Source: a virus. Taken from it: a DNA stretch of 35,757 nt. The stretch is taken from the IMG/VR virus record IMGVR_UViG_3300047462_000460, positions 1 through 35,757 of that record; one strand, 5' to 3'. Under the pieces are notes generated by a model that saw only the letters and a program-made list of their open reading frames with translations, was not told where the DNA came from and made no database searches. Within the stretch, counting starts at the first letter, position 1, and each line of letters starts with the position of its first letter. Position numbers and translations under genes: made by a program. Shown here piece after piece: positions 11,069 through 35,757 of this stretch.

Positions 11069-11490
11069 GCGACGGCCTTTCGTCCCTGCGGCTCGCGTGC
11101 GTAGAAAACGGCCGTTGGCTCGACGCACGCGACGTCGAGCGAGAGACAATCATGCCGCTCCACGGCCGCGCGCAGTCCCCGGTTCCACTCCGCAACCGTA
11201 AAGGTGAGCACGAGGTCTTCGGCATCGGCCATGTTCGCGAGGTCCTTGAGTAGCGCAACGCCCGCGCGTTTGCCCGCGAACCCCGCGACCGTCCAGACGT
11301 GAATCACGTAGATCGTCCCGCCGCGCTGACGCGCGTAGACGACCGCGCCCGTCATCCCGTCACGACGGTCGATATGGACATGAATGTCCGTTGCGACGGC
11401 GCCGTCTTCGGGCCACGGCGTGCGCAGAAATTGCGCGATGCAGAGGCGTTGCAGGTCGGGGGTATCCTCGGGCACCGACGCGCGGATCAT
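11065..11490 (-). CDS. GNAT-like acetyltransferase domain protein
   Basis: A 141-aa protein. The stretch TIYVIHVWTVAGFAGKRAGV followed by ALLKDLANMA resembles the GNAT beta4-alpha3 acetyl-CoA loop (R/Q-x-x-G-x-G/A is here GKRAGVA), and AVFYAR near the end fits the last strand. Substrate unknown. Its ATG overlaps the tailspike stop, so it is made with tail proteins and may be a virion component or may modify one. Confidence 0.5.
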   Translation of the reverse strand: MIRASVPEDTPDLQRLCIAQFLRTPWPEDGAVATDIHVHIDRRDGMTGAVVYARQRGGTIYVIHVWTVAGFAGKRAGVALLKDLANMADAEDLVLTFTVAEWNRGLRAAVERHDCLSLDVACVEPTAVFYAREPQGRKAVA

Positions 11491-13259
11491 GCGGTCGTAC
11501 CGAGTTGGACGCTATGGGTGTTGGACCCGAGCGCAAGTGAGTATGGGGTCGTGACCGCGGCGCTCGGGATGCAGTTGCCGATGATATTGCAATAATCGCA
11601 ACCTGCTGGCGTCGCGATTCCCGTCGTTATAGCGCCGGTCGCAGAACCATTTGCGACGTTACCCATAATAGAGCAGTGCGTCGAGCCCGTAAGCAACTGG
11701 ATGAAAAACCCCATATTGCCGTTGTTATACGCGTAACCGCTGTTGTTAGAAATGGTGCAACATGGCGAATTATCGACGACGATTCCGCTATTGACGCAGT
11801 TGAGCACCGTGTTCTCGGTGATCATACAGCCCGTAGAGCCTTGCGCGTAAATTCCGATTGGTAGGCCCGTGCTCCCATTGGCTTGCATTCCCGAGACGCG
11901 CACTCGCGCGGAACTGCCAGCGACATAGATTCCGATCGAACCTGTGCCGCCACCTGAAACCCAACCGTTTACGATCTCAAGCGCAGCTCCATTTCCGGCC
12001 GAAGCGAGATTATAAACATAGAATCCATACCCACCGGTTGGAAACGAATCAGCAATACATCCCCGCATGTGGATGTCCATATTGAGAAGGGCCGTCGACG
12101 ACGAGCCGTCGATGTAATAACAATATGTACAAGAGTCCGCCTCGCACATATCGAGGAAGAGGTCCGCGATCGCAACGCCATGCACCCAAAAGCCGTAGGC
12201 CGACCCAGAGAACGTGGTGTGCGCCGTAATGCAGTGCGAGATATAAACGCTCGGATTTTGCGATGTTGCGCTTGAAATATCGAATCCGACGACAGGCGTG
12301 ACTGTGACGCCCGTACTCGCCGCGTAGATGCGTTCGAGGAAACAATCCGTGTTGCCGCTATTGAGCCGGACTTGCGTCGAGTAATTCGTCACGCGCACGT
12401 CGACTATTTTGAGGTTGAATGTGGATGCCGCGAGTATACCGACGCACGCGGTGGTCGCTCCAATTGGCAGTGCAATGCCGAGGTTTTTAATAACCGGGTA
12501 CTCGAGGTTTGTAATCGAGATTCCGTTGACGCCATTCGTGCCGACGAGTTGCGTGCCGTAGACGAGGCCTCCGCTACCATCATACGGCGAAGGCCCAATC
12601 GTCGTGCCCTCGATCGTCGTCGAGTGATGCGCGACCGTCACGGTCGTTGTCAGTTTATAGGCTTTTGCGAGAAGTTTGAGGATGCCGCCCTGCGTCATCG
12701 CTCCCAAGGCGTTGTTGATGGCAAGCGAATCGCTCGTCGTGCCGTTGCCGACCGCGCCGAACCATTCCGCATAGATCATCGGCGTCGCGCCGTTGATCGA
12801 GATCGTGCCAGTCGTCGTAAACACCGGAACTGGCTGCGCGTTGATTGGTCCCGTGAACGTCTGGTTCGCCGTGCCCGAGATGACCGCGCCCGCCGCGAAC
12901 CACACCGGGCACGAGAACGTCGTCGCCGAAAGCACGTACGTCCCCGGCGGGAAGTAGATACCAGCGGCCGTGCTGCCAACCGTTCCCGTCGCGGCCGCCG
13001 TAACCGTGGCGTTCACGGCCGTCGAATCGTTCGTCGTGCCGTTTCCGGTTGCGCCGTAGTCTTTGACCGAATACCATCCGAGCTGCGTGAGGTTATTTGC
13101 GTAGTCGAGATACGCGGACGTCAGCCCGCGCGGGCCGATGTTCGCAAGCGCGGCGCCCGTTAAAAGCCCCGTCGTCACCGCGATCGTCGGCTGTTGCGGC
13201 GTCGGGGTCTGCCAGATCGGGCGCATCGGCGAGCCCTTCATGTTGTTGTTGATGTTCAT
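11487..13259 (-). CDS. Tailspike with pectate-lyase-type beta-helix
   Basis: A 590-aa protein. Two family-typical entries occur: YSVKDYGATGNGTTNDSTA near residue 65 and AEWFGAVGNGTTSDSLA near residue 165. Both are the start motif of Pectate_lyase_3-type right-handed beta-helices. From about residue 200 on, regular Gly/Asn/Ile/Val-rich turns continue to the end. The likely role is trimeric host recognition and polysaccharide depolymerisation. The ATG at 13259 is coupled to the upstream stop (ATGA). The 3' half is richer in A+T than its neighbours, as is usual for exchanged receptor-binding modules. Confidence 0.85.
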   Translation of the reverse strand: MNINNNMKGSPMRPIWQTPTPQQPTIAVTTGLLTGAALANIGPRGLTSAYLDYANNLTQLGWYSVKDYGATGNGTTNDSTAVNATVTAAATGTVGSTAAGIYFPPGTYVLSATTFSCPVWFAAGAVISGTANQTFTGPINAQPVPVFTTTGTISINGATPMIYAEWFGAVGNGTTSDSLAINNALGAMTQGGILKLLAKAYKLTTTVTVAHHSTTIEGTTIGPSPYDGSGGLVYGTQLVGTNGVNGISITNLEYPVIKNLGIALPIGATTACVGILAASTFNLKIVDVRVTNYSTQVRLNSGNTDCFLERIYAASTGVTVTPVVGFDISSATSQNPSVYISHCITAHTTFSGSAYGFWVHGVAIADLFLDMCEADSCTYCYYIDGSSSTALLNMDIHMRGCIADSFPTGGYGFYVYNLASAGNGAALEIVNGWVSGGGTGSIGIYVAGSSARVRVSGMQANGSTGLPIGIYAQGSTGCMITENTVLNCVNSGIVVDNSPCCTISNNSGYAYNNGNMGFFIQLLTGSTHCSIMGNVANGSATGAITTGIATPAGCDYCNIIGNCIPSAAVTTPYSLALGSNTHSVQLGTTA

Positions 13260-15025
13260 CGGACCGGTAACCGGCGACTGATTTCGAGCACGTACCCCAA
13301 AAGAATCCACTCCGTCGTGCTTGTCTCGGTGAGCAGCGTTTGAATGACGCGCCCGTCCGCGTTCTTCGAGGGCACGATCGTCACGGGCGCGTAGATCGTC
13401 GCGTTCGTGCCGCCGCCGAAGACGTTGGTTCCAAAGACCCCCGTACCGAAGACCGCACCGCCGCCGGGTAAGAGTTGCGTGTTTGCCGCAGCCGAGGTCG
13501 AGAGCAGAAAATCCGTCGTAAAGACGGCCGTGAACGTAAGCGGCGTCCCCGAGAGGGCAGCCGCGATCGCAAAGCGCGCGCTGTGCAAATGCTTGTAGTC
13601 AAAAAACGCGCTCTCGCGCGCGATCTGCGGAAAGCGATCGGCCGGTCCCGCGAACGTCGTCGTGATCGCGCCGCCGAACTCGACGAACCCGCTGCCGAAG
13701 ATCGCGACTTGATCCGCCGTCGCGCTCGTCCACACGAAGAGGTCGTTGTCGTAGGGGCCGTTGAGTTGCGCCGCCCCGGCAACTGTCATCGCCGCCGAAA
13801 ACGGATACTGCGAGAGCGCGCCGTGGATCTCGCCCGCCTGCGGATTGCCCGCGTCGTCGGGTTTGGAGAAGTCGAACCACACTCCCGCCGTGGGATAACC
13901 CGCCGCCGCCTGGTTGTTGGGCAATCCGCGATCGTAAAAGATCAAATAGCGCGAGCCGATCCGCACGCCCACGGCCGTCGTATACGCAAGGCAAAGTGCC
14001 CCGTACCCGTTGAGCGAGGAGTCGAAGAACGTCGGCACGCTTGCGCTAATCTGCATGACGACGTACCCGTCCGTATAATACACGCCGTCGTTTGAGAGAA
14101 AGACAAGGTACGTATCGAACGCCGCGAGCGACTCAGGGGCGACCATGCCGCGCGCGACGCTCACGCATTGAAATTGAAACCCGTAAACCGAGGCGTACAC
14201 GCCTGTGAATTGCCCGCGGTAGATCGCGCTCTCTTTGAAGACGATGATGTTGCCTTGAAGCGAGGTGATCCCCGTGACGTTGCCGCCGCCGACGCCGTCG
14301 TTGAAGCCGACGAGATACGGTTGATAGCTGCCGGGGTAGGCGGTCGACGTCGTCGCGCTCTGCGAGAACTGCTGCGGGTAGAAGGCGTTGGAGACATAGA
14401 CGGCCGTCGGCGCCGTCGATTCGCCCGAGTAGACGAGCACCGAGTTGTTGCTCACGGTCGTCACGAACCGCGGCGTGATGCCGCTGCTCGAGGTCAGCTT
14501 CTGCGGCAGGAAGCCCGCAGCCGTACTGACGGCCGTGAGCGTGGTGTGTCCGGGGCCTTGCCACATCCACGGCACGTCCACGCCGTTGCAGATGAAGCAC
14601 GTGTTCGCGCCGCTCGTCGGATCGTACATCTGCGCGACGTGAATGCGCTGCGCGCCCGTCCCCATCGGCGTCGTGATGTTCGTCCACGACGATGCGCCCA
14701 CTTGGGCAAAGGCGAGCTTCGTGCCGTTCTGGGCGAGGAGAACGGTCGTCGTGAGGTTCCCCGAGAGCGTCCAGCGCGTGGCGACGATCGTCGTGCCCGT
14801 GCCGCCCATGCCCGTCGCGCCGTTAGCCGTGACGTAGTAGCTCGAGGCCGGGCGCTTGGCGATGACGTTATCGTAGGCGGGCCAGCCGTTGATCGAGACG
14901 GCGAGCATGTTGCGGTCGAGGGCGTGCACGTCGCGCTTGGTGTTGAGGCCGCCGCTCGGGTCGGCGTACTCGACGTAGACGGGCGGTTCGGGTAGCCCGC
15001 CGACGTTTCGCGCGGGTTCAGCCAT
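13256..15025 (-). CDS. Tail nozzle / stabilisation-type structural protein
   Basis: A 589-aa beta-rich protein. The N-terminus, PSGGLNTKRDVHALDRNMLA followed by AKRP, matches the GGLNtr...kRPG opening common to podovirus nozzle and DNA-stabilisation proteins (T7 gp12 or P22 gp10 role). Repeated FLSNDGVYYTDG-type strands suggest a beta-propeller. The gene lies between the adaptor and the tailspike, as expected for the tail tip. Confidence 0.65.
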   Translation of the reverse strand: MAEPARNVGGLPEPPVYVEYADPSGGLNTKRDVHALDRNMLAVSINGWPAYDNVIAKRPASSYYVTANGATGMGGTGTTIVATRWTLSGNLTTTVLLAQNGTKLAFAQVGASSWTNITTPMGTGAQRIHVAQMYDPTSGANTCFICNGVDVPWMWQGPGHTTLTAVSTAAGFLPQKLTSSSGITPRFVTTVSNNSVLVYSGESTAPTAVYVSNAFYPQQFSQSATTSTAYPGSYQPYLVGFNDGVGGGNVTGITSLQGNIIVFKESAIYRGQFTGVYASVYGFQFQCVSVARGMVAPESLAAFDTYLVFLSNDGVYYTDGYVVMQISASVPTFFDSSLNGYGALCLAYTTAVGVRIGSRYLIFYDRGLPNNQAAAGYPTAGVWFDFSKPDDAGNPQAGEIHGALSQYPFSAAMTVAGAAQLNGPYDNDLFVWTSATADQVAIFGSGFVEFGGAITTTFAGPADRFPQIARESAFFDYKHLHSARFAIAAALSGTPLTFTAVFTTDFLLSTSAAANTQLLPGGGAVFGTGVFGTNVFGGGTNATIYAPVTIVPSKNADGRVIQTLLTETSTTEWILLGYVLEISRRLPVR

Positions 15026-20948: not shown

Positions 20949-21965
20949 TTAACCGCTCACCCAGAAGACGGCCCAATGGGCCTGGGGTTTGGGAACGACG
21001 AGGTTGCCGCGGAAGAGAATGCGCGTGAACATCGTCGCGTTGCTCTGCGCTGCGATCCAATCGGTTTCGTGGAAGTTGAGCTTCGGGTTGATCGCAAGTT
21101 TGATGAAGCTCGAGTTGAGACCGCGGATGAACCCGCCGAGCGACGACGTCGTCGGCGACGAGGTGTTGGTCTCGAAGTGATTGTCGACGAAGAGCGGGTT
21201 GCCGTTGAAGATGTAGTCGTTGCCGCCCGCCGTGCGCGCCATATCCGGTTGGATGTAGGCGTCTTGCGTGAAGAGCCCCTCGATGAGCTGCGCGAGGATG
21301 AGCCGATTGCAGAAATACGCATCGGGTCGCGAGTTGTCGATCGAGGCGTTGATGTCGATTTGGTGGATGGTCGGCAAGAGGTTCGCGGCGACCGTGCCCG
21401 AGACGTTGTAGTTGACCTGCGCCGACCACTTCGTGCCGTACGTCGCGCGCGCGATGTTCGCGTAGGTCGGTGCGACCGGACCGTTGTCGATCGCCTCCGC
21501 CAAACCATCGAACCCGCGCGGCGAGATCGAGTTCGTATTGGTCACCACGTCTTGGCTCATGAGGTCGAGCATCGACATGCGCGTGATGTCGAGTTGTGCT
21601 TCGACCATACCGAGGATCGCTTCGTCGGATCCTTCGTTGTCGACGAGGTCCGTCACATTGAGCACGAGGGCGTCGGCGTATCCGCGCCACGGGAGCGACG
21701 CGCGCACGAGGTTGCCGGCAAGTGAATTGATCGGCAGATTATCCGCGCCGTCGAAGGCGATGGAGTTGGGCGACCGACCGAAGTTGTTCACCCACGTGAT
21801 CGCAGCGCCGCCCTTGACGTACCGCACCATGTCCCGCTGCAACAGGTACATGAAGAATTTATTGCCTTGAAAGAGCTGATCGTAAACGATGTCACCGAGC
21901 ACCGCTTCGCGGGTGACCGCTTGCAGGACGTTGGTGTAGGAATACGATGCGGAAACGTCTGCCAT
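20949..21965 (-). CDS. Major capsid protein, HK97-fold type
   Basis: A 338-aa protein. Family features include the N-terminal VLQAVTREAVLGDIVYDQLF, a spine-helix region with WRGYADALVLNVTDLVDNEG, and the C-terminal PKPQAHWAVFWVSG. Size and position directly after the scaffold fit a capsid of this class. The ATG at 21965 follows the scaffold stop by three bases. No separate HK97-type protease is present, but a Prp-type protease is encoded upstream. Confidence 0.85.
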   Translation of the reverse strand: MADVSASYSYTNVLQAVTREAVLGDIVYDQLFQGNKFFMYLLQRDMVRYVKGGAAITWVNNFGRSPNSIAFDGADNLPINSLAGNLVRASLPWRGYADALVLNVTDLVDNEGSDEAILGMVEAQLDITRMSMLDLMSQDVVTNTNSISPRGFDGLAEAIDNGPVAPTYANIARATYGTKWSAQVNYNVSGTVAANLLPTIHQIDINASIDNSRPDAYFCNRLILAQLIEGLFTQDAYIQPDMARTAGGNDYIFNGNPLFVDNHFETNTSSPTTSSLGGFIRGLNSSFIKLAINPKLNFHETDWIAAQSNATMFTRILFRGNLVVPKPQAHWAVFWVSG

Positions 21966-21968
21966 GGA

Positions 21969-22745
21969 TTAACCCGTCTTCCTTTGCGCGTTGAGTTTCG
22001 AGAGCATATAGTCCGTAAACGCGCCCGGTCTGCGCGGATCGGGTTTGTCGGGTTCAGCGGCGCGTGAGGCGCTCGGAACGCCGGGTGCGGCCGAGCGCGC
22101 GCGCAAGCTGCGCGGCGTCGGCGCTTCTTTTTTGGCGGCGGCGCGGCCGTAGAGGCGTTTGAAGGCCTCTTCGAGCGGCACGAAGCGCGGCGCGCCTGCG
22201 GCCACGGTCTCGTCGTGCAAGACTTTCGCGAAGCGGCCGAGGTCGTTTATCTCTTCGGACGTAAGGCCTTGTTCGGAAACAAGACGCTGTGCGTACTCGA
22301 GATTTTGCGAAATGAATGTTTGCTGCGCGGCTTTGGCTTCTTCTTGCTCGCGAGCGGTGCGGGCTTCGCGGTCTTTGCGAAGGACGCCGACTTCTTCGAG
22401 TGCGGGCTTGAGGCGTCCATCGATCTCCTCGAGCAGCTTGCGGTATTCCGGCGGAAGCTCTTGCTCGCGCGCTTTCTCTTGGGCTTGGCGCGTCTCGAAG
22501 TAACTCTTGCGCGCGCTGCGCTGAAACTCGCGATAGTCCTCGTCGTCGAGGATCGCGCGCACGTCTTCTTCGTACGGTGCGATGCGATCGAAAATTTGAC
22601 GGCTCTCGTTGTAGTAGCGCTCGAGTTCGGCGATGCGTGCATCGCGGGGATCGGGGACGGAATCGGCGCCCGGCGCGCGCCGAAGCTCACCCTCCGGTAG
22701 GGTGGGCGTCGATTCGAGGATGGGATCCGATTCCGTTCCGTTCAT
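21969..22745 (-). CDS. Scaffolding protein
   Basis: A 258-aa acidic, charged coiled-coil protein (residues 35-170, for example RIAELERYYNESRQIF and EKAREQELPPEYRKLLEEID) with a basic C-terminal tail ending SKLNAQRKTG. Coiled coil plus a basic capsid-binding tail, directly before the capsid gene, is the usual scaffold design. The ATG at 22745 is 12 bases after the stop of an 18-aa gene. Confidence 0.82.
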   Translation of the reverse strand: MNGTESDPILESTPTLPEGELRRAPGADSVPDPRDARIAELERYYNESRQIFDRIAPYEEDVRAILDDEDYREFQRSARKSYFETRQAQEKAREQELPPEYRKLLEEIDGRLKPALEEVGVLRKDREARTAREQEEAKAAQQTFISQNLEYAQRLVSEQGLTSEEINDLGRFAKVLHDETVAAGAPRFVPLEEAFKRLYGRAAAKKEAPTPRSLRARSAAPGVPSASRAAEPDKPDPRRPGAFTDYMLSKLNAQRKTG

Positions 22746-22827: not shown

Positions 22828-23337
22828 TTACGCCGGCAGAGCGCCGGCTTCACCGGGCGGACCACCGGGCATTGCGCCCATCGGACCCCCGGGAGGTAGG
22901 CCTGTAGCTCCACCGGGGGAGCCTGGTGCGCCACCGGGGGCACTTCCCGGCGGAGCGGCCCCGACGCCCAGGCCGGTCGTCGGGGAAGGTGTGGGGGGCG
23001 CGAACATCGTCGCAAGCGAGGCCTTGAGTTCGGCGCTCGCAAGCGGAAAACAACGCTTGAGCAGAATGTCGACGGCATCGGAGAGCTGCACCGAGGCGAG
23101 CAGTCGCATGATGCTCGCGCGCATCCCCTCGAGGAGCAGCATGCGCGGGTCGGCGTCGTCGATATTGGAGACGGCGACTTCGAGCGAGCGGCGGATGCGC
23201 TGAAAATCCAGGAGCAGCGCGTCGCTTGGATCGGTGCGATCGCTCGGCGTGTTCGGATTGGGCGGAGCGGACTGCGAAGCCAGGGCCGATTTGAGCCCCG
23301 ACATTGCGCTTGACGAGAGTCCCGCCATACCTGCCAT
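22828..23337 (-). CDS. Head-region protein with collagen-like Gly/Pro tail
   Basis: A 169-aa protein. Residues 1-110 are helical with QRIRRSLEVAVSNIDDADPR. The last 60 are Gly/Pro-rich (GGAPGSPGGATGLPPGGPMG). It lies between the protease and the scaffold. Met1 at 23337 or Met4 at 23328 may start it. No family recognised. Confidence 0.6.
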   Translation of the reverse strand: MAGMAGLSSSAMSGLKSALASQSAPPNPNTPSDRTDPSDALLLDFQRIRRSLEVAVSNIDDADPRMLLLEGMRASIMRLLASVQLSDAVDILLKRCFPLASAELKASLATMFAPPTPSPTTGLGVGAAPPGSAPGGAPGSPGGATGLPPGGPMGAMPGGPPGEAGALPA

Positions 23338-23376: not shown

Positions 23377-23592
23377 CTACCGCGCGGGCTTTTTTTTCGG
23401 CTTCGCGCGCACGATGCGCTCGAAGCGCGCCTCGCGCGGATATTCCTTGGCGATTTTCTCGAGGCCGAGTTGCACCGTCTCCCAGAGCGCCGAGACCCCC
23501 GCGCAGACTTTTTCGTTTGCGTGTCCCGTGATGGCGAGGGTCGAGCCGCCTTCGGCGTCGAGCGTGTCCGTGATCGCGTAGATCCGAATCAC
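23377..23592 (-). CDS. prp: Prp-type cysteine protease (capsid processing candidate)
   Basis: A 71-aa protein from a GTG that overlaps the portal stop (GTGA). It has the catalytic pair of the YsxB/Prp family: H24 in ITGHANEKV and C30 in CAGVSALWETV, followed by the family-like GLEKIAKEYPREARFE. Known Prp of Firmicutes trims ribosomal protein L27 and, in phage 80alpha, capsid and scaffold proteins. Here the enzyme is phage-encoded between portal and scaffold, so it most likely processes head proteins. The loop between His and Cys is short (6 residues versus 12 in the S. aureus enzyme), and the tail is Lys-rich (AKPKKKPAR). Confidence 0.8.
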   Translation of the reverse strand: MIRIYAITDTLDAEGGSTLAITGHANEKVCAGVSALWETVQLGLEKIAKEYPREARFERIVRAKPKKKPAR

Positions 23593-25580
23593 TTCTTGGA
23601 CTTCGTGGGACTCGGGGGCTTGGGTGCGGCCGCGCGCGTGCGTGCCGGCGGTGCGATCGAGTTCGACTGCGGGTTGCGCCGCAGCACGTCGCGCCAATCG
23701 GCGACCGCGTACGCCGTCGAATCCAGCGCCTTCCACGCGCTGACTTTATCGCGCAGGCCGAGTTGCAATTCTTCGAGGATGCGGTTGCGCGTGCCCGAGC
23801 CCGACCACGCCGTGGTGCTGCCGATGACGATGTCGTAGCGGAAGCTGCCCATGAGCAACTCGCGCGAGGCGCGTTCCCAGGTCAACTCGCCCTCGGCGTT
23901 TTCCACGGCGATCGCGTGCGCGTCCGTGTAGTTCTTCGCGACCCAATAGCCGACGCGGCGGCCGATGCCGATGATGAAGGTCTCCATGTTCTGGGTCTTC
24001 TCGACGATCTTCGAGCCGCCGAGTTCGGCGAGGGAATCCGTCATCTTCGAGGAGTCCGCGCGCGGGGCGACGTCGGCCATCGACCCGGACATGATGCCGT
24101 CGACCCCCGCGATCTCGCGCATGTCTTTTTTGATTTCTTGGCGCCACCCGAACCACGCCGTGCTGATTTCGGGAAACGTGAGGGGCTCGAGATTGTTGAT
24201 CGCGCGGCCGACGTCGAGCACTTGCCCCGCTTGAAAAAGTAGCGAATTGCGCGTGGCGGGGCAGTCGCTCGTGCGTTTGAAAACGCGGTAGCTACCGTAG
24301 CGCAGATTGTCTTGCATGATCGAGGTCGAGACGTTAAGGACGATCTGACTATCAAGAAGGTCGTGGATCGTGCCTTTTGACCAGGGGCCCTCGAGCCATT
24401 CGCCCGCTTGATACAGCTCGTAGGGCTGCGGGTGATCCCAGGCAATGTCCTCGATGACGCGCCCTTCGGGATAGATCTTCGTCGTGCGGCGCCATTGCGG
24501 GTACATCCGCACGAGCTTGCGTTCGGTTTGATCCTCGAAGCTCAGTTTGTAGCCCGGCTCGCCGAGGATTTCGTCCCAGGGTCCATCTTGGGTGAAGCGC
24601 GGCGTGCCGTCGTCTTCGCGCAGCATCTTGCGTTTGGGGTTGCCGTCGCCGTCGAGCATGGGCACGTCTTCTTCGTGCATCGTGTAGTCGCGGTGGTAGA
24701 GTTCGACGACGTGCACGGCGTACTCGTCGGCGTAGCCGACGGGGGTGCGTCCGGTGAAGGCCGTGACGACGGGGACGCCGTTGACGATGGCGCCTGCGGT
24801 TCCCCAGGCGACGGAGCCCGAGCCCGTCGCGCTTTGGCTTTTGAATTGGTCGCGGATCGGGGAGTCGGCCGTGCCGCCGCCGAGGGCCGAGGCCGAGACC
24901 GGGGACCCGGCATTCTCGATGATTTCGGCGGCTTCGGGATAGAGCAGCATGGCGTCGGTGCGGCTCATCATGGCGCGATCGCCGATGAAGCGCATTTCTT
25001 CGGGGTGCGAGGCGCGCGGGTCGAGGATGAGGCGCCACCCCGGGATGATGTCGGTCGTGACGTCCCCCGCGCCGCCGCGCAGCGAGTCGTCCCACAGGGT
25101 TTTCGCCGCGCAGGTGCGAGTGGTTTCTCCCAGGCGCAGCGCGCGGCGCACCTTGCGCTGCATGCCGTCCTCGGTCCAAATTTTCGGCAAGAGTTGCTGC
25201 ATGACGCGCGCCGCTTCGCGATCGCCTGCGTCGTTGGGCGCGACGACCCAGATCGGGTCTTGCTTCGTCTGCAGGGAGATGAGCTGGTTGATGAGGGTCT
25301 TCGAGTAGGGGATGGTGAGTGCGGCGCGGTCGCGCGGCACGCGCACGTCCCAATGCCGACCGGCGTAGAGGTTGGCCCCGATGCGATCGGATTTGCGGCG
25401 TTCGTCTTCGCCTTGATCGGCGATGCGGATGTAGTTCTCGACGACGCGCGAGAGTTCGGCGACGAAGGTCGGCTCGCCAACGGGGTCCGTGGTCTCGTGG
25501 GGCTCGCCGCGCGCGAGGACGCGCTCGCGGCCGCCGGGGCCGTGCAGATCGTAGGTCGACGAATTCCCCGGGGATGCCAT
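23589..25580 (-). CDS. Portal protein
   Basis: A 663-aa protein. Typical portal features are an N-terminal helical region (YIRIADQGEDERRKSDRIGA), VPRDRAALTIPYSKTLINQL, IIPGWRLILDPRA, and a long central stem region. The C-terminus is rich in Pro, Thr and Lys. Order TerL, small genes, portal, protease, scaffold, capsid is the standard head module. It forms the DNA gate at the capsid vertex. Confidence 0.88.
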   Translation of the reverse strand: MASPGNSSTYDLHGPGGRERVLARGEPHETTDPVGEPTFVAELSRVVENYIRIADQGEDERRKSDRIGANLYAGRHWDVRVPRDRAALTIPYSKTLINQLISLQTKQDPIWVVAPNDAGDREAARVMQQLLPKIWTEDGMQRKVRRALRLGETTRTCAAKTLWDDSLRGGAGDVTTDIIPGWRLILDPRASHPEEMRFIGDRAMMSRTDAMLLYPEAAEIIENAGSPVSASALGGGTADSPIRDQFKSQSATGSGSVAWGTAGAIVNGVPVVTAFTGRTPVGYADEYAVHVVELYHRDYTMHEEDVPMLDGDGNPKRKMLREDDGTPRFTQDGPWDEILGEPGYKLSFEDQTERKLVRMYPQWRRTTKIYPEGRVIEDIAWDHPQPYELYQAGEWLEGPWSKGTIHDLLDSQIVLNVSTSIMQDNLRYGSYRVFKRTSDCPATRNSLLFQAGQVLDVGRAINNLEPLTFPEISTAWFGWRQEIKKDMREIAGVDGIMSGSMADVAPRADSSKMTDSLAELGGSKIVEKTQNMETFIIGIGRRVGYWVAKNYTDAHAIAVENAEGELTWERASRELLMGSFRYDIVIGSTTAWSGSGTRNRILEELQLGLRDKVSAWKALDSTAYAVADWRDVLRRNPQSNSIAPPARTRAAAPKPPSPTKSKK

Positions 25581-26218: not shown

Positions 26219-28432
26219 CTAGAAATCTCCCCCGTTGTATCCCGCCCACCCGCCGCCCATGGCGCAGCTCGGCACGAGTTGTTCGTCGAGTCCCGAGGCG
26301 AAGAGGTTTTCCATCTCCGGTGCGATCTCCGGTCCGTAGACGTCCGCCGAGAGCCCGCGCCCGGCGAAGACCCCGTCCACGTCCGTGCGGTTGAGCCCGA
26401 GGTCGACGGCGGTCGGGGCCTTCATGCGCCGGGTCTCGAAGTCCGCGCGGGCGTTGGGTGGCGCTTGGCGCACGGCCCAGAGCGCGAGGCCGCAGGCGAG
26501 CACCGTGTCGTCGGCGCCTTTGCCCGTGCGTCCCCCCGCGTAGCGCTCTTCCATCCGCGAGGTCAGGCCGAGGTAGTAGAACCGGCTCATCTCGCGCCGC
26601 AGCCGCGGGCTTGCGATGCGGTAGTGCCGCGCCTTGATGAGGTTCGTGAGGTATGAGATCATGACGGGCTTCGAGTGCTCGGTCGTCGAGAATCCGAACT
26701 TGCGTTCTTTGAAGCGCGCTTCGTCCCACGCTTCATCACGCGCGAGGTTCGGGTAGTTCCAATCAAAGATGAGGCGCTTGAGGACGCTCGAGCCGAGGTG
26801 GTTGATCTCGGGGTTGACGATTGCGGTGTTGTACCACCACCCGAGGTGCGCGACGAGGTCGGCGAAGGCGGTGGGATCGAGCGTGCGGCTCCACATTTCG
26901 GCCGCCTGCGCGCCGCAGGTCACGCAGGTCACGTGCGCGCAGGCGCCGTCGTTCCCCGTCCCGAGTGAGGCGTCGGCCCCGACCGTGTAGAAATGCCCGG
27001 CCGCGGGCGGTTCCCACACGAGAATCTTGCCTTGCGGGTTGGATTCGAAGTGGCATTGCGACTTCATGCCGCTCGAGAGCGCGGCGAGTTCGTAGTAGAA
27101 CGGCGCCGGCATCGGGTCGAATTTGAGATCGCCGCGCGCGCAAGACCCCACGAGCGTCATCTTCGCCTGCGGCACGAGGATCTTCGCATCGGCTTCGGCG
27201 GCGCGGATGCAATGCTCGAGGTAGCTCGCATCGTCGCGAAAGACGCTGCCGTCCGCCGCGCGAAAGCACGTCTCGTCGTCCTTGGGGTACCACTCGTTGA
27301 AGACGTCGGCCGATTTGTACTTGTCGCGGATCATCTTGAAACGCCAATACATCTGCTCGGCGGTGACCCGCTTGCCGTCGTAGGCCAGGCGCAGCGTATC
27401 GAGCACCTTCCACTCCGCGCGATCTTCGGCCGAGAAGACGAAGTCGGGGGGAATCTCCTCGTAGTACCCCTCCTCGAAGAGGAACCACGGCAGAAAGACC
27501 GTGACCCAGGTGCGATCGTTGGATTCGCCGACCTCTTTTGCGTCCCAATACAGATCGCGGAAATCGTTCATGCCCTGTGGGGTCGACTCGACGATCATGG
27601 AACTCGCGCCGCCGAGGTAGTTCGGGCTCGAGGGTCCGGGCAGCTGCGGGAGAAGCGCGTCGAGGATCGGCTGCAAGAGGCCGCCGTCGCCGCCCCAGAA
27701 CGCGGCCTCGGACCCCGTGACGTGGGTCGACTGCGCGCCGAGGGCGACGTTTTGCTTGGTTGCCGCAGCCGTCGTCGACCCCGAATTCCACGCAAGGCCC
27801 CCGCGTTCGGCGAGGTAGAGTTCGTACTTGGGGACCTTGCCGCCGCCGGCCTTCGTATCGGAGCGCAAGCGCGGGCGCAGGCCCCCGACGTCGGGCAGGC
27901 ACTCGTGGACGGTGCGCACGATGTTGAGCTGGCGCGAGAGCAGGTCGACTTTGTCGCCGAGGAAGAGCGTGTGCACGTTTTTCTTGCGCCAGACTTGCCA
28001 ATACTGCCAGAGCGCGACGAAGGTCGTGATACCGAATTGCCGGGCTTTGAGAACGATGAGCCAGAGCGGCAGGTCGTTATCGAGGCAGTAGCAGATGCCC
28101 GTGCGCCACAGCACCCGCTGCGGGGAGTTGAAGATGAAGGGGTGCGGCTCGCCGCCGCCCTTCGGGGCGACCTTCGCAAGCAGCGCGCTCCAGGTCGGGA
28201 AGTCCGCCTCGCAGATGCTCACGAGTTCCCAGAACGCATCGGACCGCTGCCGCAGCAGCGCCTCCCACACTTCTTTGGGCACGCCTCGGAAATTCGGCCC
28301 CCACGCCGGACGTTCGACGCCCTTGCGATCGCGCCGAAACCCCGCCTCGACGGTAAACCCCACGAGCGCCAAGATCGCATGGGCGCGCGGGGTGATTTGC
28401 TCGGTGACGAGGTCAGGTGGTTTTTTCGGCAT
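26219..28432 (-). CDS. terL: Terminase large subunit
   Basis: A 737-aa packaging motor. ATPase: KARQFGITT at 129-137 (Walker A variant), SEAAFW at 241-246 (Walker B region with E242) and VESTPQG at 281-287 (coupling motif). RNase H-like nuclease: D487 in TVGADASLG, E542 in IVNPEI and D641/D642 in GKGADDTV. It is longer than many TerL proteins because of an extended N-terminal segment before the ATPase. The ATG at 28432 lies inside the end of the previous small gene (20-base overlap). Confidence 0.95.
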   Translation of the reverse strand: MPKKPPDLVTEQITPRAHAILALVGFTVEAGFRRDRKGVERPAWGPNFRGVPKEVWEALLRQRSDAFWELVSICEADFPTWSALLAKVAPKGGGEPHPFIFNSPQRVLWRTGICYCLDNDLPLWLIVLKARQFGITTFVALWQYWQVWRKKNVHTLFLGDKVDLLSRQLNIVRTVHECLPDVGGLRPRLRSDTKAGGGKVPKYELYLAERGGLAWNSGSTTAAATKQNVALGAQSTHVTGSEAAFWGGDGGLLQPILDALLPQLPGPSSPNYLGGASSMIVESTPQGMNDFRDLYWDAKEVGESNDRTWVTVFLPWFLFEEGYYEEIPPDFVFSAEDRAEWKVLDTLRLAYDGKRVTAEQMYWRFKMIRDKYKSADVFNEWYPKDDETCFRAADGSVFRDDASYLEHCIRAAEADAKILVPQAKMTLVGSCARGDLKFDPMPAPFYYELAALSSGMKSQCHFESNPQGKILVWEPPAAGHFYTVGADASLGTGNDGACAHVTCVTCGAQAAEMWSRTLDPTAFADLVAHLGWWYNTAIVNPEINHLGSSVLKRLIFDWNYPNLARDEAWDEARFKERKFGFSTTEHSKPVMISYLTNLIKARHYRIASPRLRREMSRFYYLGLTSRMEERYAGGRTGKGADDTVLACGLALWAVRQAPPNARADFETRRMKAPTAVDLGLNRTDVDGVFAGRGLSADVYGPEIAPEMENLFASGLDEQLVPSCAMGGGWAGYNGGDF

Positions 28433-31944: not shown

Positions 31945-32072
31945 CCGTGCGTCTCCCCGCATTGTCCCGAGAATAGCACGGGCGCACCGAACGCCCCGAT
32001 CGCGGCGAGAATCAGCACGAACGCTGCGATCATCAGCATCGTAAGCAACGGGTCCTTGCGTAGCCATTTCAC
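31938..32072 (-). CDS. 44-aa single-pass membrane protein
   Basis: From a GTG at 32070-32072 that overlaps the radical SAM stop. KWLRKDPLL precedes one membrane segment, MLMIAAFVLILAAIGAFG, and a short Cys-containing tail. Positive residues at the N-terminus predict N-in topology. No family recognised. Confidence 0.65.
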   Translation of the reverse strand: MKWLRKDPLLTMLMIAAFVLILAAIGAFGAPVLFSGQCGETHGC

Positions 32073-32962
32073 GTAAAAAGCCCCTGTTGTTCGTCGTACA
32101 CCTCCACAACGCGACGATTGTCGCGCGTGCGATCGTACTCTTTAAAAGACTGCGTGCGCCATATGAACCTGTTTGCCCATCGCGCAACGTCTTTCAATTT
32201 CTGCCTCGTCCAATCGTGACGAACCAACGGCTCTTTATCAAGCGAGTTAAGCGCCATAACAGGTTGAACGTGAGGCTCGCAGCCAGCAGCGATCGTAAGA
32301 CGGATGCGCTCCATGCACTCAGCGAACGGCTCGTTGCCGATTAAAACATAGACACGTTTACGCGAGGAGGGCTCGTTTCGTAGCATGTTAAAAACGCGCG
32401 CCACTTCTTCGCGTTCCTGCATATCGTCAAACGCAAAGCGCCACGGTCCATTTCCTTCGTTTATAAGATCCTTCCATCGCTCATACACGTCAGGCGTAAA
32501 TGTTCGCGGCTCAAATCCTGAATTGGCGTCGATAAGCGGCACGCCCTCACCCCTATACCGCGCGATGATCTCTAGTTGATATTGAGCTGGAAGCGCCGAG
32601 AGGTTATTGTCGCAAAGGATCGGCCGAACCGGAAAATTGGGAAGCAGTGTGAATTCTTTGCCCTCCATTTTTGGCACAATACAGAACCAACACCCAACCG
32701 GGCACCCGCGCGAAGCCATTGTCGCGAGTGGATTGTGCCATGCTATCGCGTCTGGGAAATCGGCTCGGACCTCCGCAACGTCGGTTAATTTGTGTTTCAT
32801 TTGTGTTAAAAACAAAGCGGGTCCACCAGCAACGACGCGAATCCCTTGCGCCTTTGCAAACACAGCGCGCGACCATGCTTCATCTAACTTCCATGTGAAA
32901 GCGACTGACAAAAAAAGCGTGTCTCCTTGTTGTTTTTCCGCAAGACCCTTAGCCCATCCCAT
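32069..32962 (-). CDS. Radical SAM enzyme
   Basis: A 297-aa protein. The 4Fe-4S/SAM motif is RGCPVGCWFC (C87, C91, C94; CxxxCxxC). The N-terminal part, LFLSVAFTWKLDEAWSRA, then VVAGGPAL, resembles the cobalamin-binding-like region of B12-type radical SAM proteins, but the B12-ligand motif DxHxxG is not seen. The enzyme class makes a 5'-deoxyadenosyl radical for difficult substrate chemistry. Substrate unknown. Its 3' neighbours are a membrane peptide, a micropeptide and a DPPY methyltransferase in an AT-richer island, which suggests nucleic-acid modification. The ATG at 32962 overlaps the previous stop. Confidence 0.85.
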   Translation of the reverse strand: MGWAKGLAEKQQGDTLFLSVAFTWKLDEAWSRAVFAKAQGIRVVAGGPALFLTQMKHKLTDVAEVRADFPDAIAWHNPLATMASRGCPVGCWFCIVPKMEGKEFTLLPNFPVRPILCDNNLSALPAQYQLEIIARYRGEGVPLIDANSGFEPRTFTPDVYERWKDLINEGNGPWRFAFDDMQEREEVARVFNMLRNEPSSRKRVYVLIGNEPFAECMERIRLTIAAGCEPHVQPVMALNSLDKEPLVRHDWTRQKLKDVARWANRFIWRTQSFKEYDRTRDNRRVVEVYDEQQGLFT

Positions 32963-34524
32963 CAGCACGATCCGTTCGAGCAGAACACGAGCGGCGGCGA
33001 CCACGATCCCATCGAGAATTGAACGCCGCTGCCGTTCCAGGTGATCCCCGAGAGCGTCGCGACATCTTCCCACGGATCGCGCTTTCCCTGGAATGCGAAC
33101 TCCTGGCCGGATTGTACGCCGAAGCCGATGCCGCTTGAGCCCGACCAACCGCTATCGGTGTCGACGAACCCGTAGTGATAGCGATCCATCGTGCGATAAA
33201 TAATCGCTTGGTACGAGTTGAACGGGTACATTGCGTTGATCTGCGCGTCCGTCGCGTCGATCGCGCCGCGTGTGCCCTCGGGGATGCCGACCGTCGAACT
33301 CGCTTGATTCACGCCCGTCGTCGGGTTGAAGCATTGGCCGTCGGATGCGTTCGCCGGCGGAACGAAGCCGGGACCGTTGCACCGAAAGAAGGCAGCAAGC
33401 GCGTGCGGTAAAACGCACGACGGGTCCGTCGACTGCATACACGCGAGCAGTTCGCCCGCTTGCACGATGCCGAGCGTGAGCGCGACGTTCGTCGCGCGCG
33501 CGCCCGAGCAGGCCGTGCCGTTGCCGTTCTTCGGGCACACGCCGCCGCCGCCGACGGTAAGCGTTCCGCCAGGGGTCGTCGGTACCGGAGAGACAAGCCA
33601 AAAGTCATATTCATTGAGCGCGTCGCCGCCCGAGATATGGTGATCGCTTCCGCCTTGGCGCGTCGCGCCCGCGGGGAGAACGGCGATCGTCGACCCGTTG
33701 AGCGTCGGCGCGTTTTGTTTACACGTATAGGCAGCGTACGAGACGGCCGAGCACGAGACTTTCATCGCGAGCGGCGACGCTACGAGATCGTAGAGCGGAC
33801 TCGATCCGTCATTCACGTTCGATCCGTCCTCGGTGATCCAGAACGACGCGAAGATTCCTGGCGACTGCTCGGCCTGCCACGCCGCGCTCTGCGCTGCGCT
33901 CACGAGGTTCGGATTTGCGGGGAGCGGCTTGTAGAAGATCGAGGTCGGGAAGAGATACGTCGAACTCGGCGAGGCGATCGGCTTCGGCGGGGCCACAAAC
34001 TCGACGACCATCGGATCGTCACTCTTGAGCGTGTAGGCCGTTGTGCCGCTCGACCCGTTGCCGACGAACGTGCCGCCCGAGACGATCACCGACTTCTCAA
34101 AGAATCCGCCTTTCACGTAGATCGTCACGGAACCGTTTTCGCCCGCGACCGTCACGAGTAAGTCGCCGGCGGCATCGTATTTCGAGGTAAACCCGATATT
34201 GCAACAGGTCGGCGCAATCGTAACGATCGGTGCGCTAGTGGGAGCCGCCGAAGCCGGTGCGGGCGTTGCGGTAGCGATGGGGATCGGCGAAGCGCTTGCG
34301 CTCGAGCTCGGTGAGGGAGCGGATGACGGCTTCGGCGACGGCGTCGCGCTGGCGGCCGGCTTTGGTGAAGGGGCGTATGGCGTTGCGGATGCGGTCGGCG
34401 TCGGGCGCGCAGTCGGGGTCGGAGACGGTGACGGCGTCGGCGTCGGTGCGCTGCACAGCGCCAAGCTCGACGTCAGGAGGAAACAGGTCCAACCGCTCGG
34501 CAGCGGCCCGGGAACGAGTGCCAT
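32962..34524 (-). CDS. Secreted or surface protein with Pro/Thr/Ser linker
   Basis: A 520-aa protein starting ALVPGPLPSGWTCFLLTSSL, a signal-like N-terminus ending in LALC, which only partly fits a lipobox. About 80 residues of Pro/Thr/Ser/Ala linker follow (TPTPSPSPTPT-type). Then comes a Cys-rich globular region with SDHHISGGDALNEYDFWLV and a C-terminal beta-rich part ending FCSNGSC. Many Cys indicate an exported protein. The first 290 bases overlap the membrane-protein gene in another frame. Possibly a host-surface or superinfection factor; family not recognised. Confidence 0.65.
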   Translation of the reverse strand: MALVPGPLPSGWTCFLLTSSLALCSAPTPTPSPSPTPTARPTPTASATPYAPSPKPAASATPSPKPSSAPSPSSSASASPIPIATATPAPASAAPTSAPIVTIAPTCCNIGFTSKYDAAGDLLVTVAGENGSVTIYVKGGFFEKSVIVSGGTFVGNGSSGTTAYTLKSDDPMVVEFVAPPKPIASPSSTYLFPTSIFYKPLPANPNLVSAAQSAAWQAEQSPGIFASFWITEDGSNVNDGSSPLYDLVASPLAMKVSCSAVSYAAYTCKQNAPTLNGSTIAVLPAGATRQGGSDHHISGGDALNEYDFWLVSPVPTTPGGTLTVGGGGVCPKNGNGTACSGARATNVALTLGIVQAGELLACMQSTDPSCVLPHALAAFFRCNGPGFVPPANASDGQCFNPTTGVNQASSTVGIPEGTRGAIDATDAQINAMYPFNSYQAIIYRTMDRYHYGFVDTDSGWSGSSGIGFGVQSGQEFAFQGKRDPWEDVATLSGITWNGSGVQFSMGSWSPPLVFCSNGSC

Positions 34525-34773: not shown

Positions 34774-35757
34774 GATTCAACCAGCGGCGAAAAATCTTTC
34801 GGTGCGATGTCGAACGTCCACGCGCGCGCCTCAAGCGCCGTTGAGCACGTCGGCGGCACGCGAAGAACGTACGTCTTCCACACACGCCCATCGCGCACGA
34901 CGTCGTTCGGCCCGGCCTCGTAGCCGATCGGCTCGGGCGATGCGTTGACGACCTCGAGCACGCACACGGCCTCGTCGTCGCGCTGATCGTAGCGATACAG
35001 TTTCCCGTGCAGCTCGTGCGCGTCAACGATCGTCGCGCCGATCTCGCGCACGAAGCGCGCGGCGGTGAAGCGGTCGAGCATCACGCGGCGGACCTCGGCG
35101 TTGCGCTCGGTTGCGATCTGCTCGGCGGTGATCGTCTCCGGCGATTCGACGAGCTGCTGCGGAACCGACATTCCGCGCAACGACCACAGCGCCGTTCCGT
35201 CGCGCCACGCGATCGCGGGGCCATGCTCGTTGTGCAACCGACGCCACCGTTGGCCGGGCATGAGCCGGTCCTCGAGGTGAAGCGTCACGGGCGGTTCACA
35301 CACCATCACGAAATCTTTGTGCGGCCACAGCCAACCGGCGCTCATCATATCGGCGTACGCATGGCTACGATCCCACGTATCGCCCGGGAGCTTTAGACCA
35401 ACGACATCGCGGAAAAACGCCACGTACGCCATGCCCCAATAATACCAGCCGCCGCCCCACCATCTGCCACCGAGATAGTACGCCCATCCGCGCCGGATCG
35501 TGTCGAGAAGCGCGTCTCTAATCTCTTTCGTCGCGCGAGGCCCTTGGGCCGAGCGCGCAACGCGGACCGCACCGCGGACCGCATCGCCGACCGCAGCGTT
35601 GACCGCACCGCGGACCGCAGCATCGTCGACCGCAGCGTTGACCGCATCGCCGACCACAGCGCTGACCGCAACGCCGACCGCATCGTCGACCGCAACGCTG
35701 ACCGCATCGCCGACCGCAGCGCGGACCGCAACGCGGACAGCATCGCCGACCGCGTTC
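34770..35757 (-). CDS. DUF6745-type repeat protein, C-terminal part (continues from 1..672)
   Basis: This is the 3' part of the junction-spanning 504-aa protein. After the last xxAV repeats comes a Trp/Tyr-rich segment (YYLGGRWWGGGWYYWGMAYV). Then follows the DUF6745-like domain: RRLHNEHGPAIAWRDG, LWSLRGMSVPQQLVESP and ERNAEVRRVMLDRFTAARFV. The frame is open from 34770 to 35757 and matches the frame of 1-672 when the 145-base overlap is merged. The stop overlaps the zinc-finger peptide start. Biochemical role unknown. Confidence 0.85.
   Translation of the reverse strand, partial: NAVGDAVRVAVRAAVGDAVSVAVDDAVGVAVSAVVGDAVNAAVDDAAVRGAVNAAVGDAVRGAVRVARSAQGPRATKEIRDALLDTIRRGWAYYLGGRWWGGGWYYWGMAYVAFFRDVVGLKLPGDTWDRSHAYADMMSAGWLWPHKDFVMVCEPPVTLHLEDRLMPGQRWRRLHNEHGPAIAWRDGTALWSLRGMSVPQQLVESPETITAEQIATERNAEVRRVMLDRFTAARFVREIGATIVDAHELHGKLYRYDQRDDEAVCVLEVVNASPEPIGYEAGPNDVVRDGRVWKTYVLRVPPTCSTALEARAWTFDIAPKDFSPLVES
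35565..35757 (-). repeat. 12-bp tandem repeat coding xxAV, right part
   Basis: The same degenerate 12-bp array as at 1-375. The first 48 bases (35565-35612) are unique to this end; the remainder duplicates bases 1-145. Merging gives about 35 tetrapeptide units. Confidence 0.95.
35613..35757. repeat. Direct terminal repeat, right copy
   Basis: Matches 1-145 with differences at 35739 and 35743. In the coding frame the first is silent (both Ala) and the second exchanges Gly for Asp at a position where both occur in other units. Confidence 0.9.

Follow-up and report, generated by a model that had tools for sequence, protein, structure and literature searches.

Among the head genes of the virus record IMGVR_UViG_3300047462_000460, analysed here as one stretch of 35,757 nucleotides (the window), lies an open reading frame for a protein of 71 residues with the look of the cysteine protease Prp. 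The locus raises the question whether so small a protein belongs to the Prp family, what has become of the rest of the fold, and whether it could serve as the prohead protease of the phage. We propose that it specifies a mini-Prp, a His/Cys peptidase of the Prp type with an internal deletion, which on balance probably acts in prohead assembly, its activity being predicted.

The gene and the compact Prp family

The head genes follow each other on the same strand in the order terminase large subunit, P22-like portal, mini-Prp, 169-aa ORF, presumed scaffold and major capsid protein (MCP):

26219..28432, minus strand: terminase large subunit (phrog_2, E 4.1e-8)
23589..25580, minus strand: portal protein, P22-like (PF16510, E 1.6e-9; phrog_156, E 4.7e-16)
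23377..23592, minus strand (23592→23377): mini-Prp gene, 71 aa, GTG start (ORF call, profile match, codon usage)
23521..23523, minus strand: codon of the presumed catalytic His24 (GHA), from alignment with mini-Prps
23503..23505, minus strand: codon of the presumed catalytic Cys30 (VCAGVSAL), from alignment with mini-Prps
22828..23337, minus strand: 169-aa Pro/Gly-rich ORF between mini-Prp and scaffold, without family match
21969..22745, minus strand: presumed scaffold, 258 aa, acidic and charged, a candidate substrate (assigned from its position upstream of the MCP and its composition)
20949..21965, minus strand: major capsid protein, 338 aa (phrog_9953, E 7.9e-24)

A preliminary description had placed a phage-owned Prp between portal and scaffold. 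This position is borne out, with the 169-aa ORF also intervening before the scaffold. The portal gene, ending in TGA, and the mini-Prp gene, beginning with GTG, overlap by 4 nt, and the 71-aa protein, VIRIYAITDTLDAEGGSTLAITGHANEKVCAGVSALWETVQLGLEKIAKEYPREARFERIVRAKPKKKPAR, is probably made together with the portal. The GC content by codon position (0.62/0.46/0.83) matches that of the portal gene (0.63/0.48/0.85). The motif GH..C[AG]xV[ST]A occurs once in the window and in none of 60 Markov-simulated windows, and among the 575 stop-to-stop ORFs of the window the 71-aa ORF is the sole match to a mini-Prp profile (42.9 bits, E 1.2e-12; runner-up E 0.95). The ORF is a real gene and a Prp relative; a chance ORF with a Prp-like motif, for which its small size and a Pfam score beneath the cut-off could be cited, is contradicted by this E value and by the simulated windows, and its probability is negligible.

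General Prp models recognise the protein at modest scores. Pfam PF04327 (Peptidase_Prp) aligns to residues 18-55 with 22.7 bits (E 1.2e-4), short of the curated cut-off of 27 bits, while the highest-scoring NCBIfam Prp model reaches 22 bits and a match to phrog_4478 ('peptidase') 21.7 bits. Other mini-Prps fall on both sides of the PF04327 cut-off, some over it (29.6-56) and some under it (21.6, 21.9). Against a profile of the 79 distinct phage mini-Prps among the matches listed, built with the window protein left out, the score is 46.1 bits. The His/Cys pair noted earlier is thus accompanied by profile similarity: His24 and Cys30 lie in GHA...VCAGVSAL, and Val33 and Ser34 are likewise kept in the GHA...C[AS]xVS context, as is Gly23. 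The window protein shares a beta-beta-alpha start, the GHA...C[AS]xVS[AL] pair and a C-terminal GL...yP..v.v segment with Prp proper (MEROPS C108, PF04327), as represented by SaPrp of S. aureus and TmPrp of T. maritima (1S12). It differs from SaPrp in lacking the Asp near the Cys, Asn26/Glu27 being found at that place; the S. aureus enzyme requires this Asp, D31, which holds the loop (PMC9405229).

The relatives were found through Streptomyces phage Kromp, to which tblastn with the window protein pointed weakly. Kromp gp6 is a 62-aa 'protease' whose gene lies between scaffold and MCP, and its Cys-to-Pro spacing (22) is identical to that of the window protein. A degenerate DNA pattern derived from these two proteins matched at least 119 IMG/VR stretches. 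At least 105 IMG/VR loci encode compact Prps of 61-77 aa, with at least 79 distinct sequences, and in these loci the gene adjoins scaffold and capsid genes. The invariance of the mini-Prp residues is partly by construction, because the pattern fixed Cys30, Ala31, Ala/Gly32, Val33, Ser/Thr34, Ala35, Gly43, Leu44 and Pro52 and the filter demanded Gly/Asp-His upstream; the His is present in every Prp-like match of the unfiltered list, among the matches listed.

Judged by its sequence, the window protein is a member of this compact phage branch of Prp. It has the length and the Cys-to-Pro spacing of the group and the same junction of helix 1 with helix 2/strand 5 at a Gly-Leu, and its gene sits in a portal-scaffold-MCP block as in the group; a position directly after the portal is also seen in phiFL3A, BL3 and Krappator27. 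It resembles Kromp gp6 and related phage proteins in its compact layout and in adjoining scaffold and MCP, whereas its His-Cys loop is shorter. Its His-Cys spacing of 6 is the shortest among the matches listed (others 7-14), and among these matches it is one of the most divergent mini-Prps. A DNA pattern with exactly this loop length returned chance matches only. No close relatives of the window phage were confirmed in IMG/VR by Prp, MCP, portal or TerL, and tblastn of its portal, MCP and scaffold against GenBank phages found none. One member of the list, L145, is a mini-Prp head module of actinophage type that lies in a Woeseiaceae MAG, hence in a gammaproteobacterium; because none of the other genomes of that class gave a match, 274 having been scanned, it is possibly a stray contig.

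The missing middle of the Prp fold

SaPrp and TmPrp have 94-106 residues in a b-b-a-b-b-a-b arrangement, while the 71-aa window protein is without the middle strands and parts of both helices. An AlphaFold model from a 40-sequence alignment (pLDDT 89) consists of two strands and one helix (residues 27-50), a confident beta-beta-alpha unit followed by a tail. This model and the deletion analysis below both depart from the complete Prp fold. The best viral structure match to the model is UniProt A0A6J5LQL6 (TM 0.72/0.82), a 61-aa protein of an uncultured phage that bears the name 'Cysteine protease Prp' in its database entry and shares 32% identity with the window protein. A Foldseek search of the PDB with the window model gave no significant match and no solved Prp; for another mini-Prp, S. 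aureus Prp turned up weakly (TM 0.49, E 3.2).

Full-length Prps align to the mini-Prp profile in two separate pieces, an N-terminal half and a C-terminal end. The origin of the segments on either side of the central Gly-Leu was examined with a reference set of distinct segments, 79 for helix 1 and 73 for helix 2, from full-length bacterial Prps, which had been collected by a CAGVSA pattern from bacterial genomes and are mostly chromosomal. The seven residues preceding the Gly-Leu fit Prp helix 1 in 79 of 81 mini-Prps, a comparison that is uninformative for the window protein itself. Those past it fit Prp helix 2/strand 5 in all 81, whereas their fit to the helix 1 side does not exceed that of shuffled sequences; for the window protein they score +10.0 versus -14.3, with shuffled controls at -24 ± 8. 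Since the N-side of the Gly-Leu corresponds to helix 1 and the C-side to helix 2 with the final strand, the central part of the fold has been deleted. The simplest history suggested by these alignments would be the internal loss of what lay between two Gly-Leu helix segments that resemble each other. The mini-Prp would then keep two strands, a single long helix and a C-terminal tail; at the Gly-Leu the front half of helix 1, which carries the Cys, would pass directly into the rear half of helix 2 and the final strand.

A simple C-terminal truncation was rejected because the mini-Prp tail matches the C-terminal part of Prp. That the window gene is a full-length Prp shortened by an assembly error or a recent truncation is also very unlikely. 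The Pfam alignment does reach only the first two thirds of the profile, but the same length and layout in at least 105 loci contradict this explanation, the retained tail is no random end, and the C-terminal half of Prp is not seen in the next ORF.

The shortened His-Cys loop mentioned in the preliminary description is real, but it is a known trait, shared with the T. maritima enzyme, and the loss of the central fold had been overlooked. As the alignments read, mini-Prps differ from other Prps by more than a short loop. Both Prps of phages and short loops were known before, and the new point is the miniaturised fold. Without the missing strands a mini-Prp monomer may not hold the active site, and the active unit would be a dimer or bound to an assembly.

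A probable role in prohead assembly

No profile match to the classical prohead proteases (S14, S78, herpes-like) was found in about 25 window proteins scanned, the presumed scaffold matching phrog_976 at just E 0.91, in agreement with what had been stated before. In the proposed mechanism the mini-Prp most likely acts in prohead assembly and would make a single cut in a head protein, or in a few of them, with the scaffold as the probable target.

The podovirus Cp-1, a Streptococcus phage, provides a precedent. Its orf13, which we take to be the Cp-1 capsid protease, is a short-loop Prp relative of 104 aa (PF04327, 18.5 bits) whose alignment spans the whole Prp profile. Like the window protein it is a phage-encoded podovirus protein with a short His-Cys loop and a gene in the structural region; unlike it, orf13 has the full-length Prp layout and a known substrate, the major head protein. 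With this precedent a phage-encoded Prp as capsid protease is already established, and a phage with a Prp of its own is not new. MEROPS clan CR contains Prp and the Cp-1 enzyme (PMC9405229), and the Cp-1 protease takes 48 residues off the N-terminus of the major head protein (PMC12445089). Residue 48 is a His followed by Ala (ARINH|AT, the bar marking the cut), which would fit a cut after His as suggested below for WFxLxRH|D. In phage 80alpha the host Prp cleaves between a Phe and an Ala, in the capsid protein as well as in the scaffold (PMC5744158).

In the mini-Prp loci the presumed scaffold and the MCP carry a common N-terminal motif, either xLQxF|A/S/T/N or WFxLxRH|D. Examples of such scaffold/MCP pairs are LELQLF|N and MNLQMF|T (L087), MDLQLF|A and MDLQKF|A (L107), FNIQRF|S and MNLQRF|N (L026), FNLQLF|T and FDLQLF|T (L231) and, in the short-loop locus L232, FNLSLF|G and ITLNRF|T. 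NLQxF stands on scaffold and MCP in the phages TP712, phiFL3A, BL3 and Fontainebleau, whose Prps are full-length. The second type is represented by GWFQLTRH|D and SWFRLDRH|D in Kromp, and by GWFRLDRH on scaffold and MCP alike in L009. Among the matches listed, the WFxLxRH type occurs in scorable mini-Prp loci on the scaffold side in 57/79, on the MCP side in 59/79 and on both in 51/79, against 2/687 control ORFs from elsewhere, counts that are approximate because ORF starts and neighbour choice were mechanical. The strict form WFxLxRH|D is found on scaffold and MCP in L005 (4249-6510) and in most WFxLxRH loci, and its presence on both proteins of mini-Prp phages is apparently undescribed in the literature found. 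A further Kromp protein, gp4, bears the annotation capsid maturation protease. Judging from 80alpha and Cp-1, mini-Prps would cleave at this motif, and the cut positions marked are predicted.

The window phage differs from Kromp and 80alpha in this respect. The mini-Prp phages share with 80alpha the N-terminal Prp motif common to scaffold and capsid protein, although the 80alpha enzyme is the full-length host Prp, whereas scaffold and MCP of the window phage show no common N-terminal motif (z -1.2). Among 240 N- and C-terminal comparisons of 16 window proteins no credible motif appeared, and the cleavage motif is absent from the N-termini of window ORFs of at least 100 aa, save one weak match on a plus-strand ORF of doubtful coding. 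MCP residues 9-329 align to positions 8-322 of the 329 in phrog_9953; being aligned with its family from the first residues, the MCP has no obvious pro-sequence or N-terminal extension. The presumed scaffold was without family match in profile scans. The 169-aa protein could be an assembly partner or substrate. A role of mini-Prps in head maturation is likely for the branch and plausible for the window phage: the prohead-protease claim is well supported in the relatives, by their matched motif and the Cp-1 precedent, but not directly in the window phage, whose scaffold and MCP have no motif in common.

An active protease with a target outside the head, for instance in the tail, among the ejected proteins or, as with L27, in the host, appears rather improbable. 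L27 is indeed among the Prp targets, and the motif is borne by a tail protein of some other phages (PMC5744158), but the window gene belongs to the head module and overlaps the portal gene, the scan of ORF N-termini offers no target beyond the doubtful plus-strand match, and cleavage of host L27 late in infection would bring no evident benefit. More weight should be given to a mini-Prp that is no longer a protease but an assembly factor or a decaying remnant, its fold kept without a substrate. The missing substrate motif, the strong divergence with a His-Cys spacing below that of the other matches listed and the loss of part of the fold would agree with this; against it stand the retained Gly23, His24, Cys30 and Ser34 and a codon usage resembling that of the adjoining portal gene. 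We consider such an inactive descendant unlikely, and prefer a mini-Prp acting in prohead assembly.

Wider implications and other features of the window

A bolder scheme can be put forward tentatively. Mini-Prps would be widespread phage cysteine proteases of about 62 residues, among the smallest known, that arose by deletion of the middle of Prp between similar helices; two copies would pair and rebuild the active fold, each lineage would have co-evolved with its own scaffold/capsid motif, and the window phage would represent a branch with a third, unrecognised substrate. Many phages are without a recognised prohead protease, and if mini-Prps of 62-71 residues perform this task, they would supply the missing enzyme in a large set of phages, actinobacterial ones among them, and would offer a minimal cysteine protease for study. 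The motifs WFxLxRH|D and xLQxF|A provide ready candidate peptide substrates, for example RSWFRLDRHDIRTT.

As to the remainder of the window, its ends (1-145 and 35613-35757) repeat each other within a 12-bp tandem array, which encodes a protein with a DUF6745 domain linked to 4-aa repeats (VGDA/VDDA). The contig probably represents a genome of about 35.6 kb in near-complete form. It also encodes a radical-SAM-like protein at 32069-33148 (weak match, E 0.017) and, at 11487-13310, a pectate-lyase-like beta-helix protein that is probably a tail spike.
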